From the IMG/VR virus record IMGVR_UViG_3300036832_001125, positions 1 to 25,702 of that record: a stretch of 25,702 bases of DNA; one strand, given 5' to 3'. Numbering within the stretch: the stretch's first letter is position 1; every line of letters begins with the position of its first letter. The stretch comes from a virus. A program made the position numbers and the translations under genes. Below the pieces are notes generated by a model that saw nothing but the letters and a program-made list of their open reading frames with translations, was not told the origin of the DNA and did not search any database. Shown piece by piece: positions 8,511-17,873 of this stretch.

Positions 8511-10178
8511 GTGTCGATCGTCCCGTGGGAATGTGCGCTCGGCGACTCTCCGGCCGTTACCCTGCCGTGCGCAGCCACGGTTGCCCTCTCTCCGCCAGAC
8601 GACAGCGTAGACACCAACCACGTCGCGATCACCGGTAACGGCACGATCACCAGCTTCGGTCCGTCTCCGGTCAGTCCCATGGACGGGACCTCGCTGGGTG
8701 TGACCAAGCAGGTCACGTTCCTCCCGACGAGCACCTCCTCGCCTATCATCTTGCAGAACGGCGCGGCGTTGTCGTTGCTCGGGGCAGCTAATCGCACGAT
8801 CGGCCACAAGAGCATCGGTACGTACTCCTGCGACGCTTCCGGCAATTGGATCGAGCAGAGTTTCGCGGACACCTCCCAGGCCCCTGGCGGTGGCGGTGGC
8901 TCGCAAGGTCCACCGGGGCCGACGGGACCGACCGGGCCAGCAGGTCCGACGGGACCAGCCGGGACTCCTGGCAACACGGTGCTCTACGGCACCACCGATC
9001 CGGTGGCTGCGACCGGCGTCGACGGCAACTTCTACATCAATACTACCACGCACTTCATGTTCGGTCCGAAGGCGAGCGGTGCGTGGCCAGCTGGTACCTC
9101 GCTGATCGGCCCGACTGGTCCGCAAGGACCGATTGGAAATACTGGCGCGACCGGCCCGCAGGGACCGCAAGGTCCAACTGGCAACACCGGCGCGACCGGC
9201 CCGCAAGGTCCGATCGGAAACACCGGAGCGACTGGCGCCCAAGGACCTCAGGGCCCGATCGGCAACACCGGCGCGACCGGTGCTCAAGGTCCGACGGGTC
9301 CGACCGGCGCCGCCGGCAACACCGTGCTGTACGGCACCAGCGATCCCGTCGCCGGCACCGGTGTCGACGGCAATTTCTACATCAATACGACCTCGCACTT
9401 CATGTTCGGCCCGAAGGCCTCGGGAGCGTGGCCAGCGGGCACCTCGCTGATCGGTCCTCAAGGTCCGATCGGAAATACCGGCGCCACTGGTCCGCAGGGA
9501 CCGACTGGAAACACCGGCGCGACCGGCCCACAAGGTCCGACCGGCGCGACAGGTCCAACCGGTCCGCAGGGTCCGCCTGGCACGTCGGCCGCGATCGCGG
9601 TCGGTGTCACCCCGCCATCGAGTCCGGCCGACAACACGCTGTGGTGGGAGAGCGATACCGGCGTTCTCTACATCTATTACAACGATGGTACCTCGAAGCA
9701 GTGGGTCGTTGCGTCTCCCTCATTGGTAGGTCCACAAGGACCAGTCGGAAATACGGGCGCCACAGGTCCACAGGGTCCTGCCGGATCACCGGGGATCGCC
9801 GACGCGCCTTCGGACGGCAACATCTATGGTCGCAAGAACGCGGCTTGGCTCAATCTTGGTCCGCAAATTCGCGCCTCTGGAAGATTTCAGGTCAACACAG
9901 GCAGTTCGGCTCAAACGCTCATCGGCACTCCGTACAACGTCGCGGGCGTCACCAGAAATTCGGCAGGTAACTTTACGATCAACTTTACCAATCCGATGCC
10001 CGATCTCAATTATGGTATTGTCGCTACGACCTACGGCAATGCGTCATCCAGCAACACTTGGGCGCAAGAGACCTACACGCCGGCCGTTCGCACCACGACG
10101 TCTATCGGGATCGCCTGCTTGGTAGCCTATAATTCGGTCGGCGATCCCTACCAAGTCAGCTTCATGGTCTTTGAGTGA
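8511..10178 (+). CDS. Large collagen-like tail fibre
   Basis: A 555-aa fibre starting with GTG, chosen because AGGTGAAGG precedes it. Residues 1-125 form a beta-rich head. Collagen-like Gly-X-Y runs occupy about 132-153, 200-269, 315-358 and 408-428; many triplets are GPQ, GPT, GAT and GNT. A globular module ([13 protein letters not shown]..[11 protein letters not shown], ending [19 protein letters not shown]) occurs twice, at 154-200 and 269-315, and is related to modules in the fibre at 6854-7966. A different insert with [19 protein letters not shown] lies near 373-393, and one [16 protein letters not shown] copy near 431-446. The last ~100 residues (from [11 protein letters not shown]) form a distinct tip. 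Gly-X-Y runs in phage fibres form trimeric collagen-like stalks. Confidence 0.87.
8970..9455 (+). repeat. Duplicated globular module inside the collagen-like fibre
   Basis: Two copies, 8970-9110 and 9315-9455, encode nearly the same 47 residues. At DNA level they differ at many third codon positions (for example CTCTAC versus CTGTAC and AACTTC versus AATTTC). The protein is therefore conserved while codons have drifted, which reduces recombination between copies. The intervening ~200 bases encode Gly-X-Y repeats with recurring [11 protein letters not shown] blocks. Confidence 0.85.
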
Positions 10179-13044: not shown

Positions 13045-13945
13045 GAGAAGTCCTGTCGGGCTCAGCTGCGCCTAGCCGGCCTGGCCTCGCTCCGCCGTGA
13101 GCGGCTGTTCGCAGATGTGCCAGGCTATGCCCGCCTGGCTCGGCTACGAGATGCCCAGCTAAGACTTGCTCCGCGATGCTCAGCCCGCTCCGCCTCGCTC
13201 CGCTCCGCTAAACGCGCTTGGCTTTGACAGGAAGCGCCGAGCGTTGCCAGGCCAGCAGTGCCACGCCATGATCAGCAGAGGTGGCTAAGCCGGGGACTAC
13301 AGAGCCATGCCCGCTCTGCTCTGCTTTGCGGAGTTTGGCTGCGAGGTGCTACGATGTGCCTCGCCCGCTGCGGCGCGTTGCTCCGCTTTGCTTTCGAGAT
13401 GCCTAGCTGCGCCAAGCCCGCTTGCGCTCTGCTTGGCTATGACATACTCAGTCACGCTCAGCTGTGCTTTGCCTGCTTTGCTTGCCGCTGTGCTACGCCG
13501 GCAGTGCCACGCTGTGGTTTGGTCCTCTGCGCTCCGCTGGGCCGGGAAGGCTTTGCCCGCAGAGCCGCGCCCGACTAAGCTCCGGTTGGCTACGCCGTGG
13601 CAGCTCGGCGTCGCCGCGCCAGGACCAGCTATGATCAGCACGTCCTTGCTTAGCCATGCTCCGACGCGCTACGCTCCGCCTGCTCTGCATTGCTCAGCTC
13701 TGCTTGGCTCCGAGGGCTGAGCTGGGCTAAGCCTGCTAGCTCGCTCTGCTTGGCGATGCCTTGCATAACTACTGTCAGCTGTGCCTTGCCTGCGTTGCTC
13801 TACCGTGCCGTGCTCGGTCTAGGAGTGCCACGCTATGCCTGCTTTGCCGAGCCTGGATGCTGCGAGGCTAGGCTGCGCTATGCTCTGCCTGCTATGCGGA
13901 GCGGAGCCGCGCCCAACTGAGCCTTGGTCTGCTTCGCCTGCCATT
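13045..13945 (+). repeat. Array A: G-anchored pentamer array with ~54-bp super-period
   Basis: The sequence parses into consecutive five-base words beginning with G, usually GC (GCTCT, GCTTT, GCTAC, GATGT and so on). These are interrupted by four-base words GCCC or GCCT. Tetramers start at about 13129, 13183, 13309, 13363, 13416, 13471, 13555, 13678, 13731, 13788, 13837, 13887 and 13936. The runs 13129-13182 and 13309-13362 are exactly one tetramer plus ten pentamers with no exception. Inner bases differ from word to word, so it is neither a plain microsatellite nor a CRISPR array. Overlapping open frames exist but have no ribosome sites and show no protein-like composition. I read it as non-coding, probably transcribed leftward. 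Edges are approximate. Confidence 0.8.
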
Positions 13946-13950
13946 AGCAA

Positions 13951-13987
13951 CGGGGCGACAAGGTGACTATAATACCTTGTCGCCCCG
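13951..13987. other. Perfect 14-bp hairpin at the right edge of array A
   Basis: CGGGGCGACAAGGT (13951-13964) is the exact complement of ACCTTGTCGCCCCG (13974-13987), with a nine-base loop containing TATAAT. It stands between array A and the stop of the leftward HTH gene. Neither side has a T-run, so it is not a canonical terminator. It could be an RNA-processing signal, an RNA-stability stem or a dyad operator. No convincing -35 box accompanies the TATAAT. The bases from 13988 to 14080 hold nothing I recognise. Confidence 0.7.
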
Positions 13988-14080
13988 CGCTTCCCATTGG
14001 ACTTATTGCCGTGCTGGCGCATATGACTGCGGATCAGGAGCATTCTCGTCCAACAGAAATTACTCGCCATGTTTTGCCTG

Positions 14081-14371
14081 CTAGGTCTTTCGCTTCCTCC
14101 ACACCCGCTCGAAGCCAATCGAGCGGCCGGCCGCCTCCACGGTGGCTGAGGTGGGCCGCTTGGTCTTGCCGAAGAACCACTGCCGCATGGTCCCGAGCGT
14201 GGGACCTCCGGCGGTGGTGATCTCCTTCAGGTTCTTGGACGTGACCTTTTCTCCGAAGTAGTCCTCGGCCAAGGTCCGGAGCTCGTCGATCACCGGGTCC
14301 TTGTCTCGGAACACGTAGCTCCCGTAGACGGGCGGCACGTAGCTGCCTGACTTCGCGGCTTTCTTGGCCAT
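14081..14371 (-). CDS. Small HTH-type DNA-binding protein
   Basis: A 96-aa basic protein. Residues about 25-90 resemble short phage helix-turn-helix regulators: DPVIDELRTLAEDYFGE, then LKEITTAGGPTLGTMRQWFFGKT, then RPTSATVEAAGRSIGFERVW. In the middle segment the sequence after GG would be the recognition helix, and the last segment recalls the fifth helix of XRE-like folds. It is probably a transcriptional regulator of phage genes. The start ATG 14371 was chosen over GTG 14374 because GGGAGG lies seven bases before it; the previous gene ends at 14375. It is the last gene before array A, and its 3' side is followed by a 14-bp hairpin. Confidence 0.75.
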   Translation of the reverse strand: MAKKAAKSGSYVPPVYGSYVFRDKDPVIDELRTLAEDYFGEKVTSKNLKEITTAGGPTLGTMRQWFFGKTKRPTSATVEAAGRSIGFERVWRKRKT

Positions 14372-14374
14372 CAC

Positions 14375-14758
14375 TCAGCCTCCCTTCTTTTCGTGAGTGA
14401 GCCGCTTGACCGGGTGGTAGGTGGTCGCGCTGCTCTTGCCGACCCGCCTGACCAGTCTGGCCGCGATGGCCTGCTGGATCAGGTAGCTCGAGGAGCCAGG
14501 CGACTTGCCGATCGACTTGAGGAACTCCTTCACAGCGGCGGCCTTGATCGGCCCGTCCAGTTTGGCCACGTGCTCGGAGAACATGCCCAGCAACTTGCCG
14601 TTGGTCTTGGCTTTGAGGCCGGAGGGGTGCGGTTCCTCCTCCACGTTGACGACCGGCACCACGCTGGGCAGTCCTCGGACCAAACCCGAGAGTGCCCTCA
14701 GGCTGTCCGCCAGCCTCTTGTCTTCTACGAAATATTCGACTTTAAACAAGTTGAACAA
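14375..14758 (-). CDS. Putative winged-helix protein, TTG start
   Basis: A 127-aa protein of unknown family. Residues about 70-120 look like a winged helix: AAAVKEFLKSIGKSPGSSSYLIQQAIAARLVRRVG, followed by a beta hairpin with TTYHPVKR. The N-terminal part is mixed and includes a Pro/Val-rich strand. The start is TTG at 14758, decided by an AAAGGAG site seven bases upstream and by the absence of any early ATG. Its stop lies a few bases before the HTH gene, so the two are probably one operon. A DNA-binding role is inferred from the predicted C-terminal fold only. Confidence 0.68.
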   Translation of the reverse strand: MFNLFKVEYFVEDKRLADSLRALSGLVRGLPSVVPVVNVEEEPHPSGLKAKTNGKLLGMFSEHVAKLDGPIKAAAVKEFLKSIGKSPGSSSYLIQQAIAARLVRRVGKSSATTYHPVKRLTHEKKGG

Positions 14759-14831
14759 GATAGTCTCCTTTTGCTTGCTTCACAGTGATCTCCCAATCCC
14801 GGGCACAAGTCCTTACGCGACCGGGACACCT

Positions 14832-14866
14832 GGCGTGGAGGGCGCGAATGCCTCCACGCCTTTTTT
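14832..14866 (+). terminator. Rightward intrinsic terminator, possibly of a small antisense RNA
   Basis: GGCGTGGAGG (14832-14841), a nine-base loop, CCTCCACGCC (14851-14860) and six T form a perfect 10-bp terminator on the + strand, although the genes on both sides are leftward. A second stem (TCCCGG 14797-14802 with CCGGGA 14821-14826) lies just before it, so 14797-14866 could be the 3' part of a short rightward RNA. Alternatively it blocks late-operon readthrough. Confidence 0.78.
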
Positions 14867-14873
14867 GTGTCTG

Positions 14874-15044
14874 CTAATCCTCCTCTATCAATCGCTCGAC
14901 GATCCGTCGAAACGTGTCCGTCACGCTCTGGCTGCCAGTAACGTGGTTGTGGATGTCCCGCGCCATCTTCAGCGCGGTCTTGCGGTCCATGTACTTCCCC
15001 ATGATCTTGATGATTTGCTCTACGGTCTTCTTGCTGGCAACCAT
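14874..15044 (-). CDS. Small helical protein, unknown function
   Basis: A 56-aa, strongly helical and basic protein (TVEQIIKIMGKYMDRKTALKM, then DTFRRIVERLIEED). The open frame extends further upstream, but AGGGG stands about six bases before ATG 15044 and the upstream part overlaps the neighbouring gene, so I use the short form. No family is recognised; size and charge resemble small phage regulators or inhibitors. Seventeen bases separate it from the previous stop. Confidence 0.6.
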   Translation of the reverse strand: MVASKKTVEQIIKIMGKYMDRKTALKMARDIHNHVTGSQSVTDTFRRIVERLIEED

Positions 15045-15061
15045 TGCCACCCCTTTCGTTG

Positions 15062-15265
15062 TTACTTGAACGGGCTTTCGTATCCTAGCGGATTGCCGCA
15101 AGCCCGGCACACTATACCGCTGCGTCTGGATGGCTCCCAGCCCAAGCCATTGCACCGGACGCACACCAGCGGAGCCGCCTTCTTCGTTTGCGGAGCCAGA
15201 ACGTCGCTGTGACCCAGCTCCCTGCATCGCGCATTGATGGACTTGAAGTCAGTTACGATCGTCAT
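15062..15265 (-). CDS. Small zinc-finger protein
   Basis: A 67-aa protein with two CxxC knuckles, VCVRCNG (about residues 34-40) and VCRACGN (about 52-58), separated by 13-14 residues: a rubredoxin/zinc-ribbon-like spacing. The N-terminal half (DFKSINARCRELGHSD) is helical. GGAG lies eight bases before ATG 15265. It is the first gene after array B in the leftward direction, with a 10-bp hairpin about 28 bases upstream of its start. A nucleic-acid-binding role is plausible but not shown. Confidence 0.7.
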   Translation of the reverse strand: MTIVTDFKSINARCRELGHSDVLAPQTKKAAPLVCVRCNGLGWEPSRRSGIVCRACGNPLGYESPFK

Positions 15266-15316: not shown

Positions 15317-15339
15317 TCTCACTTGCCGGCCGTGCTCCG

Positions 15340-16512
15340 GTTTGATGGGCGCGGCAACGCAACGCTCTGCTTTGAGCAGCGATGCTATGCCAAGCCGGCC
15401 GAGCTTCGCTCCGCCATGCTCAGTCATGCAACGCTTCGCTTAGGCCAAGCCTGCTCCGCTTTGCTCGATCAAGCCTTGCTACGCTACGCTTAGTCCAAAC
15501 ATGGCTTCGCCCGCCACGCTTTGCTTTGATGGGCCGCGGCTTGCCACGCCGGGAAGTCGCTAAGCCTGCTTCGCCGAGCCACGCCATTGGCAGGGCGAGC
15601 CAAGCTTAGCTTCGCTCAGCCTGCTCTGCCTTTGTCTGCTAGGCTAGATCATGCATCGCTACGCAGGGCTCCGCCCGCATCGCTAAGCTTTTTCTGCGTC
15701 GTCGCACTTGGTTTCGCTAAGCCTGCTGGGCCACGCCTTGATCGGACTCGCTCAACAGGGCTGCGATGCGAACCGCAGGACACGGCTTGGCCTGCCTAGC
15801 TCCGCCTCGCTTTGCGCTTGGGTGCGGAGCCGTGCCATGCCCGCTTTGCCGAGCCCTCTATGGGGCGCTGGGCAACGAGACGCCACGCCGGGTTGGGCCA
15901 TGCCTGCCAGGCTAGGTCGGGCTGGATCACGCAGCGACTTGATCCGCCACGCTTGGCGCGCCGCGCTTTGCTCGGTCCTCGCTCGGACTTGCGGGGCCGC
16001 GATCTGCTCAGCACGGGCTGCCGAGTTGAGCTTATCCCGGCGTTGCTCAGCAGAGCCGTGCTAGGCCTGCTTTGCTTGGATGTGCCAAGGTCTGCTTCGC
16101 TTTGCCTGCCATGCTTGGCTCGGAAACGCCATGCCGTGTTTCTGCTTGACACGGCTAGGGCGTGCTTAGAAGGCTGTGCTACGCCTGCTAAGCCATGCCG
16201 TGGTCGTCTGGGCTAGGACGAGCTTGGCCGTGCCCGCTCAGCTTGGCCGAGAGGTGCCATGCGATGCTCCTCTCCGCACAGCTCAGCGTGGCCTCGCATA
16301 GCTTGCTCAGTATCGCTGCACTATGCCGCTACCCGCCGCGCTCCGTTCGGCCAGAGTAGGCTTCGCCTCGCCTGCCATGCCTAGCCACGAGAGGCTCCGC
16401 AGTGCTACGGGCTGCCGGGCTACGCTCGGCCCGCTTGGCCATGCGAGGCTTTGGTTCGAGAGGCTTAGGTTTGCCTGCCTCGCTTTGCTGCGGTTTGCAG
16501 TGGAAAGCCTAG
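15340..16512 (+). repeat. Array B: second G-anchored pentamer array
   Basis: Same construction and same strand as array A: G-initial pentamers (mostly GCNNN) with GCCC or GCCT tetramers. Tetramers start at about 15449, 15509, 15564, 15619, 15673, 15721, 15790, 15839, 15902, 16065, 16104, 16183, 16232, 16370, 16429 and 16473. From about 16384 to 16500 the parse is almost unbroken. Spacings of 39, 44, 49, 49, 54, 59, 69 and 79 are all one tetramer plus whole pentamers. It starts immediately after the stop of the leftward 16513-17088 gene. No open frame within it has a credible ribosome site, and no other feature was seen. Confidence 0.8.
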
Positions 16513-17088
16513 CTAAGCTGCGGGACGATCTCTGCCTCTTCTCGGCTTACCTCCTCTCGGCTTACCTCCGTTTGGTTTCCTGCCGCCCTTCACCTTGTCC
16601 ACCTCCTTCCACACCGGCTCCAGTTCTCGGAGTCGGTCGTACTGCTCTTTGATCCGGTCCAAGTCGTTGAGCGCGTCCTGGAGCAGGACCTCGTAGAGGG
16701 TCTTGGACTTCATGATGTCGACTATGTCGCGATAGCCGCCGCCCCTCTTGTTGGCGCGGTCGATGGACAGGGAGTAGAACCGCTTCTGCCCACCGTCGTA
16801 GCTGATCTTCAGCGTGACGATCAGCTGCCGGATTTGGTTGATCCGGTGCTGCCTCGCTCCCTCCTTCTCGTTCCACTCCAGCCGCTGGGCCAGCTCCGAC
16901 TTGCGGTGCTTGGCCGCCCAGACCTCCGCCTCTTCCGCGATGATCAAGCCCTCCTCGTTCTGGAGGGCCAACAACTCACTCTCGATACTCACTGCGCTCT
17001 CCAATTCTGCTCTGAGAAACTCGGCCAGCTCGCTGTCCGAGTTTTGCTCCACGAAGGCCAGGACCTCCGCTACGGTCACTGGCCTCAT
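16513..17088 (-). CDS. Charged helical protein with basic GGKPx tail
   Basis: A 191-aa protein of unknown family. Residues 1-95 are helical and acidic (VAEVLAFVEQN, ELAEFLRAELESAVS and so on). A central segment near 98-125 (ISYDGGQKRFYSLSID, then GGGYRDIVDIM) is better ordered. It is followed by a probable coiled coil (DALNDLDRIKEQYDRLREL). The end is a disordered basic tail with three GGKP repeats and RRGRDR, suggesting nucleic-acid contact. The start ATG overlaps the stop of the 17085-17873 gene (ATGA), so the two are translationally coupled and may act together. Its stop abuts array B. The open frame further upstream is a shadow of the previous gene. Confidence 0.68.
   Translation of the reverse strand: MRPVTVAEVLAFVEQNSDSELAEFLRAELESAVSIESELLALQNEEGLIIAEEAEVWAAKHRKSELAQRLEWNEKEGARQHRINQIRQLIVTLKISYDGGQKRFYSLSIDRANKRGGGYRDIVDIMKSKTLYEVLLQDALNDLDRIKEQYDRLRELEPVWKEVDKVKGGRKPNGGKPRGGKPRRGRDRPAA
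16540..16569 (-). repeat. 15-bp tandem duplication encoding the GGKPR repeat
   Basis: TCTCGGCTTACCTCC occurs twice in immediate succession (16540-16554 and 16555-16569, + strand). It is in frame and adds one GGKPR unit to the basic tail of the leftward gene. A third, diverged unit lies next to it. This looks like recent slippage and could vary between related phages. Confidence 0.85.
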
Positions 17089-17873
17089 TGCTTCACCAGC
17101 ATCGGCTTGCGATTGTTTTGCTTGACGTCGTGTCTGACGTCGAACGTCCCCTTGCCCGTCCCGCCGCTCATCTTGGAGAACGGGCGGCCGGCCCCGATGC
17201 CCACTTGCCAACCGGCCCGCGCGAGCAGGTTGATGATGTCCTGGGCGTGAAAGACGTCGTCGTCCCAAGTGATCTCGAAGGTCGAGGACCACTTCACGAA
17301 CATGGCCCTGGCGGCCAAGTCCGTAGAGCCCTGGCCCACCTTCACCCTCTCGATGTGCATCTGGGGCTTGCCGTCTATCTTCACCAGAGGCTCGAGGTTC
17401 TCCTTGTCCCGGCCCTGCTCCACGATGAAGATGCACATCTTGGCCCTGACCATGTCCATCTCGGTCAAGCGACAGGCGTCGATCATCGCGTTGCGGAGCG
17501 CGGTGCAGGGGATGCCGTGCCAGCCCTCCGTGGAGATGTGCATGGAGCCCTCGTAGACCTTCTGGAAGTCCTTCGGAGGCTTGGCCTTCCTCGTCTTCTT
17601 GGCCGCGCTGCCCGCCTTCTGGGTGGCCATCATCTTGTCTCGGTTGGCCGAGGAGAAGCGGTTCTGGAGGTACGGGGCTTTGCCTATGATGGTGACCATG
17701 GCCGTAGCCAGCTTGGGCGGCGTGATCACTACCTTCTTCTCGATGATCCCCGCGGCCTGTCGCGCGGCCTTCTGGGTCGCGGTCAAGTGCTTGGCGTTGT
17801 CCTTCTTGTAGGCCTCGATGTGCTCGACCACGTCGGCGGACAGGGCGACCTTCTTCGCTGTTCTTCTCGTCAT
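17085..17873 (-). CDS. Conserved phage protein with RAMP/Cas7-like motifs (tentative)
   Basis: A 262-aa protein. The N-terminal ~100 residues are basic (TRRTAKK, then KTRKAKPPKD). From about 48 there is VVITPPKLATAMVTIIGKAPYL, an opening strand. GIPCTALRNAMIDACR at about 120-135 recalls the IPGSSLRGALR motif of RAMP-fold proteins (Cas7, Csm3, Csf2 families). The glycine-rich stretch at about 224-246 (GWQVGIGAGRPFSKMSGGTG, then KGTF) recalls their C-terminal G-rich loop. The family as a phage protein is unnamed to me; the RAMP link is inference from these two motifs. CAGGAG precedes the ATG. It overlaps the basic-tailed gene downstream by four bases, with array B beyond it. Confidence 0.65.
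   Translation of the reverse strand: MTRRTAKKVALSADVVEHIEAYKKDNAKHLTATQKAARQAAGIIEKKVVITPPKLATAMVTIIGKAPYLQNRFSSANRDKMMATQKAGSAAKKTRKAKPPKDFQKVYEGSMHISTEGWHGIPCTALRNAMIDACRLTEMDMVRAKMCIFIVEQGRDKENLEPLVKIDGKPQMHIERVKVGQGSTDLAARAMFVKWSSTFEITWDDDVFHAQDIINLLARAGWQVGIGAGRPFSKMSGGTGKGTFDVRHDVKQNNRKPMLVKQ

Follow-up and report, generated by a model that had tools for sequence, protein, structure and literature searches.

Two arrays of five-base words in a virus genome are very probably vrRNA guide arrays of the VIPR system, written with RGC anchors and likely to act in the silencing of immunity genes. Both lie in the window, by which is meant the whole stretch of DNA analysed, a 25.7-kb virus record (IMG/VR record IMGVR_UViG_3300036832_001125). 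The array, its strand, the neighbouring gene, the predicted fold, the anchor variant, the conservation of guides and the motif matches come from the sequence examined here, while RNA binding, the rule of one skipped nucleotide and repression are carried over from the main text of the VIPR preprint (PMC13142463).

VIPR, a CRISPR-like system, has been known only since 2026, as a weapon of inter-phage warfare. According to that main text, it consists of a phage-encoded RAMP protein, Vipr, and vrRNAs, each of 9-16 YNNGG pentamers (the GGY/NN format). The NN letters base-pair with DNA and skip one base per pair. Vipr binds the vrRNA, the outcome is transcriptional repression and the targets reported are mainly inter-phage. 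Type II vrRNAs carry a structured, invariant 3' tail, and architectures vary among types (PMC13142463).

Array grammar and the VIPR locus

Up to 12753, the plus strand of the window carries a baseplate/tail-fibre module and an endolysin-like gene; minus-strand genes start at 14081. A collagen-like tail fibre gene at 8511-10178 contains tandem repeats of its own (9107-9575). The features of the locus are as follows.

13060..13943, minus strand: array A, putative vrRNA guide array, (RGC NN)n punctuated by 4-nt RGGC steps
13950..13990, no strand assigned: hairpin with a near-perfect 14-bp stem (-33 kcal/mol, z -6.9), without a T-run
14081..15227, minus strand: three small genes between arrays A and B, with homologues downstream of the array in the related locus L123
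15334..16535, minus strand: array B, second putative vrRNA guide array, grammar as in array A, next after vipr and gene X in the downstream direction
15334..15393, minus strand: guide D, common to L123 and L124, decoding to P-F/L-G/D/E-RTTL-F/Y/H
15843..15901, minus strand: CapV guide of 12 NN pairs, one anchor with a 1-nt deletion
16236..16300, minus strand: guide B, common to L123, L124 and L127, decoding to (W/C)(D/E)V(I/L/F)(I/M)PP(H/Q)(H/Q)(W/C)SY
16513..17088, minus strand: gene X, phrog_15946, without known function, abutting vipr
17085..17873, minus strand: vipr, 262 aa, RAMP fold (phrog_4652; AF2 model, Csm3/Cas7 Z 11.8), predicted vrRNA binder

An earlier note on this DNA had described array A as G-anchored pentamers (GCNNN or GNNNN) with tetramers at regular places, and had expected an autocorrelation peak at 5. 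The GC-dinucleotide autocorrelation at lag 5 is 0.47 in array A (z 14.4) and 0.45 in array B (z 14.9), far above dinucleotide shuffles, with secondary peaks at 39, 44, 49 and 54 that fit units of 4 + 5n. A word parse recovers the two blocks singled out in that note, 13129-13182 and 13309-13362, each as GCCC followed by ten G-initial pentamers. The proposed recurrence of a tetramer every ~54 bp stands as one frequent value but not as a strict period, the spread being mostly 29-79. The parse yielded 371 pentamers in the window. On the plus strand of array A, position 1 is G in 93% of words, position 2 is C in 83% and position 3 is T in 54% or C in 28%; position 4 is flat and position 5 almost so. 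The plus-strand word is thus G-C-Y-N-N, read on the minus strand as R-G-C N-N, and GCCT or GCCC accounts for 12 of the 24 tetramers.

A coding frame through the arrays was ruled out, as the step is of five with intervening 4-mers and no conserved protein frame runs through them. Both outcomes that the earlier note would have taken as a refutation, no excess of periodicity over shuffled controls and a conserved reading frame, are therefore contradicted by the data. Rfam and ARAGORN found no RNA family or tRNA in the arrays, a tandem repeat scan and the word parse found no CRISPR-type repeats (near-identical, ~20-40 bp, with unique spacers) and blastn of array B against phages gave no match. The hairpin lies between the small genes and array A, which it immediately precedes on the minus strand, and could be a processing site or a bidirectional terminator. 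Within array A, one guide occurs as two near-copies, at 13426-13474 (CT TG AT AT CA AC CA GT TT) and 13743-13791 (CT TG AT TT TA AC CA GT TT). The NN changes between them would be codon-conservative (I/F, H/Y), and they are perhaps duplicates that track variants of a target.

The reverse complement of GCCNN is NNGGC, that is, the GGY/NN format. A scan of IMG/VR for seven consecutive GCYNN words returned at least 120 contigs, so the word grammar, a search for which in related phages the earlier note had proposed as a check, is widespread; many of these contigs have cleaner (GCCNN)n blocks with locus-specific punctuation, e.g. GAAC, GTACCTT, GAGGTA or GCCT. A different type of punctuation is seen in L003 (654-1199), where guide blocks are parted by a conserved ~50-bp unit (ATTGCACGT.ATAAGGCGGT...) with an inverted repeat. 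An array detector passed 70 loci, including a copy of the window (L001), and 0 of 60 shuffled loci. An HMM seeded with the window and SUSP1 proteins detected Vipr in 56 of these 70 loci, which the DNA pattern alone had found. In 60 of 61 array-vipr pairs, vipr is encoded on the strand that reads GGC, and the median distance is 36 bp; the sole locus with the two on opposite strands, L118, has a Vipr match truncated by the locus end. Conversely, an array lies on the vipr strand in ~73 of 80 loci picked by Vipr similarity only, a set that includes copies of each other or of loci already counted. Clean units hold mostly 8-13 pentamers (mode 9), compared with the 9-16 described for VIPR. No conserved 3' tail with structure, such as SUSP1 has, was observed between units (fold z -0.5 to -0.8). 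A pattern search of bacterial genomes found no protein related to the Vipr of the clade.

In Escherichia phage SUSP1 (KT454805, L122), two genes lie between GGU-rich arrays, and the 195-aa product of one belongs to phrog_4652 (E 1.4e-96); it is taken as Vipr because its position and size agree with PMC13142463. The window protein matches the same family (E 1.2e-17). Its AF2 model, built from 49 sequences, has a pLDDT of 88.4, and the PDB matches listed for it are all CRISPR type III/VII effector subunits, the best with Z 11.8 (VIA) over 156 residues and a Foldseek value of 1.3e-5; the predicted fold is thus that of a Csm3/Cas7-like RAMP. Gene X has a homologue beside vipr in 7/7 relatives tested and belongs to a different PHROG from SUSP1 vap1 (phrog_5926), which leaves it a candidate accessory (vap) gene.

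The strand bias and the Vipr evidence therefore place the arrays on the minus strand, in the order vipr, gene X, array B, the three small genes and array A. The strand, the vipr gene and its position beside the second array were absent from the first reading. That reading knew of no described element of this form, but VIPR guide RNAs are one (PMC13142463). Membership of the window locus in VIPR is well supported by these sequence comparisons.

The RGC anchor and the NN letters

In the window, as in its close relatives (L123-L127, L130-L131), the anchor reads A/G-G-C, most often with A; the neighbours on the Vipr tree have GGC and SUSP1 has GGU. The RGC clade (7 rows) has support of 100/100. 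On the same tree the RGC label undergoes four changes, with further cases in L189, L062 and, weakly, L047, the last two being long branches. AGC-anchored arrays adjoin Viprs outside the window's clade in L189 (5065-5248) and L062, and the anchor therefore probably arose more than once. No Vipr residues common to all RGC lineages were found. Units of the clade are separated by the 4-nt RGGC step, and anchors are strictest where they adjoin it. RGC is related to, but distinct from, the GGY of the main text of PMC13142463.

In homologous guides of the window, L123, L124 and L127, 55 of 538 NN letters differ, as against 230 of 807 anchor letters; guide pairs were picked by NN similarity, which lowers the NN count of differences but cannot raise the anchor count. 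An NN-shuffled null gave 0 shared guides. Since the NN letters are kept more than the anchors, the anchors are the drifting part, inside the consensus that would serve a RAMP protein for recognition. The earlier view that anchors are held while inner bases vary thus describes the spacing signature within an array correctly, but the relation is reversed between phages. Many NN changes appear to be codon-conservative (V/I, I/L/F), and we read the NN pairs as codon positions 1 and 2.

Searches gave no clear target for most guides of the window, and none for guides B-E. The guide B pattern has 0 matches in viral contigs and, in 289 genomes of the class of genome G002, no excess over a reversed-pattern control; peptide searches with guides B, C and D found none in plasmids. 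Guide C has 18 viral matches, an ambiguous result: 15 are close copies within a single gene family and 2 fall in Nmad2-domain proteins. One guide C-matching Nmad2-domain gene lies in an operon (L357, 953-3093) with ThsB-like TIR, 5-hmdU kinase-like and viperin-like radical SAM genes.

Guide matches to antiphage genes

The CapV guide of the window, whose plus reading is TT GA CT AT GC GG AC AC AC GG GG AT, agrees in 23 of 24 letters with codon positions 1-2 of FDLIAGTSTGGI in patatin/CapV phospholipases, the mismatch being a Ser codon TCN read as ACN. This score is reached in 107 of 131 loci, and 300 shuffles give at most 20/24. These loci are matches of the homologous guide in the sister phage L124. 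Spaced by one skipped nucleotide (TTNGANCTNATNGCNGGNACNTCNACNGGNGG), this guide matches exactly at 13 sites in viral contigs (rough chance expectation well below 0.1) and at no fewer than 118 sites in genomes. Each of the 131 sites is translated in frame as F(D/E)L(I/M)AGTSTGG, the active-site motif of patatin-like phospholipases, and 124 lie in ORFs of at least 150 aa. With a 2-nt skip, the same letters have 0 matches in viral contigs. Over the 131 loci, all clade guides together give 1255 near matches with the 1-nt skip, mostly to the selected motif itself. Other skips give 28-37 and shuffling 32-41.

Further matches come from sister phages, CapV being the only defence guide decoded in the window itself. 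A guide of L123 matches the second catalytic motif, DGGxxANNP, in 66 patatin ORFs. Another, in L124, matches EGAQFHMDV in a gene adjoining the patatin at four loci, with 18/18 letters in L318; PADLOC calls this gene a CBASS cyclase, the patatin a CBASS phospholipase effector and a neighbour an E2. A related cyclase lies inside the fetched DNA at 41 of the 131 patatin loci. A third L124 guide, common to L123 and L127, spells VVAQVHTHPG and fits a BilC-like JAB protease gene in 20/20 letters over 10 NN pairs; the operon of this gene, on a Mesorhizobium plasmid, also has BilB- and BilD-like genes. The guide was picked by reading the decoded motif, so its statistics are weaker than those for the patatins; the pattern has 0 matches in viral contigs, and in the 289 genomes of G002's class 6 genomes hold a match, against 4 control matches. 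The best-named cyclase and Bil matches are from Alphaproteobacteria.

A set of 1054 guides drawn from 127 other VIPR loci gives no excess at these defence loci, and a search for guide targets within the first 120 pattern-found phage loci plus the clade gave no rise of the 1-nt skip over other skips. On balance, the RGC-anchored guides of the clade would seem to form a battery against immunity, comprising two CapV motifs, a CBASS cyclase and a BilC-like JAB protease at conserved codons, a view that we hold with fair but not high confidence.

Other accounts of the arrays have to be set against these data. The low-complexity look of the arrays, and the resemblance to simple repeats of some other pattern matches (L036, L051, L066), might suggest a functionless degenerate minisatellite or an assembly artefact, but the same grammar recurs beside vipr, with a strict strand bias, in many more than 100 contigs, and guides decode, so that this explanation has a negligible probability. 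The earlier note had likewise set aside a decayed minisatellite, and kept word spacing with free inner letters does prove to be the signature of the arrays. TRAP binds triplets with 2-nt spacers, and blocks of ~10 such words resemble its targets; binding of the RNA or DNA by a TRAP-like protein that forms rings or filaments, and to which the NN letters would be uninformative, is nonetheless very improbable. The neighbouring gene is a RAMP, and such binding was rejected on the grounds that NN strings are kept above anchors between phages and decode to protein motifs.

A more serious alternative, though one that we consider unlikely, is that these are VIPR arrays aimed at rival mobile elements (satellites, prophages or plasmids) that carry CapV-, cyclase- or BilC-like genes. 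Targets in the main text of PMC13142463 are mainly inter-phage, the patatin motif is present in 13 viral contigs and the two Bil-type operons that turned up both belong to conjugative plasmids. Patatins occur outside CBASS too and in some viral contigs, so a rival element could be what is really targeted. Against this, the guides that could be recognised fall in catalytic or conserved motifs of defence genes, and these genes belong to two different systems; in 1.2 Mb of phage loci, no target of clade guides was found among structural or regulatory phage genes.

Proposed mechanism and comparison with known systems

As VIPR guide arrays directed at immunity genes, arrays A and B would be transcribed from the minus strand along with vipr and gene X. 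Vipr, a single-domain RAMP, would coat each block of ~9-13 RGC/NN pentamers, reading the RGC anchors and presenting the NN pairs, which would bind double-stranded DNA with one unread base between pairs. With that spacing, a guide would read codon positions 1 and 2 and ignore the wobble base. Several clade guides appear to be written against conserved motifs of the CBASS CapV phospholipase, the CBASS cyclase and the BilC-like JAB protease, and in the course of infection host (or rival-element) immunity would probably be silenced transcriptionally. Since clade guides can be decoded to immune genes of bacteria, phages of this group would seem to shut down host defences by RNA guides; we infer from the sequences that silencing of CBASS- and Bil-type immunity takes place and benefits the phage.

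If this is true, guides against CBASS and Bil codons make VIPR a programmable counter-defence. As the wobble base is skipped, one guide could strike a whole protein family and be insensitive to synonymous change. The RGC anchor, probably gained repeatedly, is a natural experiment in guide reading by a RAMP, and more immune genes could be found by way of the clade's guide lists.

Among known systems, phage proteins that defeat CBASS, as these guides would, include Acb1 and Acb2 (PMC9117128, PMC12043709); these degrade or sponge the signal, whereas the RNA guides of the window's clade would silence the genes instead. TIGR-Tas (PMC12045711) shares tandem guide RNAs and a phage-borne location and, going by its description, is set apart by its protein and array. 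CRISPR type III Csm3/Cas7 shares the RAMP fold (Z 11.8) and guidance by RNA, but Vipr is a single domain of ~10% identity, without CRISPR repeats and with a non-contiguous guide. The closest system is the VIPR of SUSP1 (PMC13142463), likewise phage-borne, with a Vipr of the same PHROG family, co-oriented pentamer arrays and ~9-16 pentamers per guide, and the predicted targets of the window's clade fit its 1-nt-skip rule. The window differs in its RGC anchors, A being commonest, in place of GGY, in long arrays whose blocks are split by a 4-nt RGGC step with no structured tail seen, and in gene X (phrog_15946) in place of vap1 (phrog_5926). In addition, guides of its clade appear to decode to CBASS and Bil genes, and CBASS is not mentioned in the main text of the preprint. 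Relative to VIPR as described, the variant anchor and the predicted use as an RNA-guided counter-defence are probably new.
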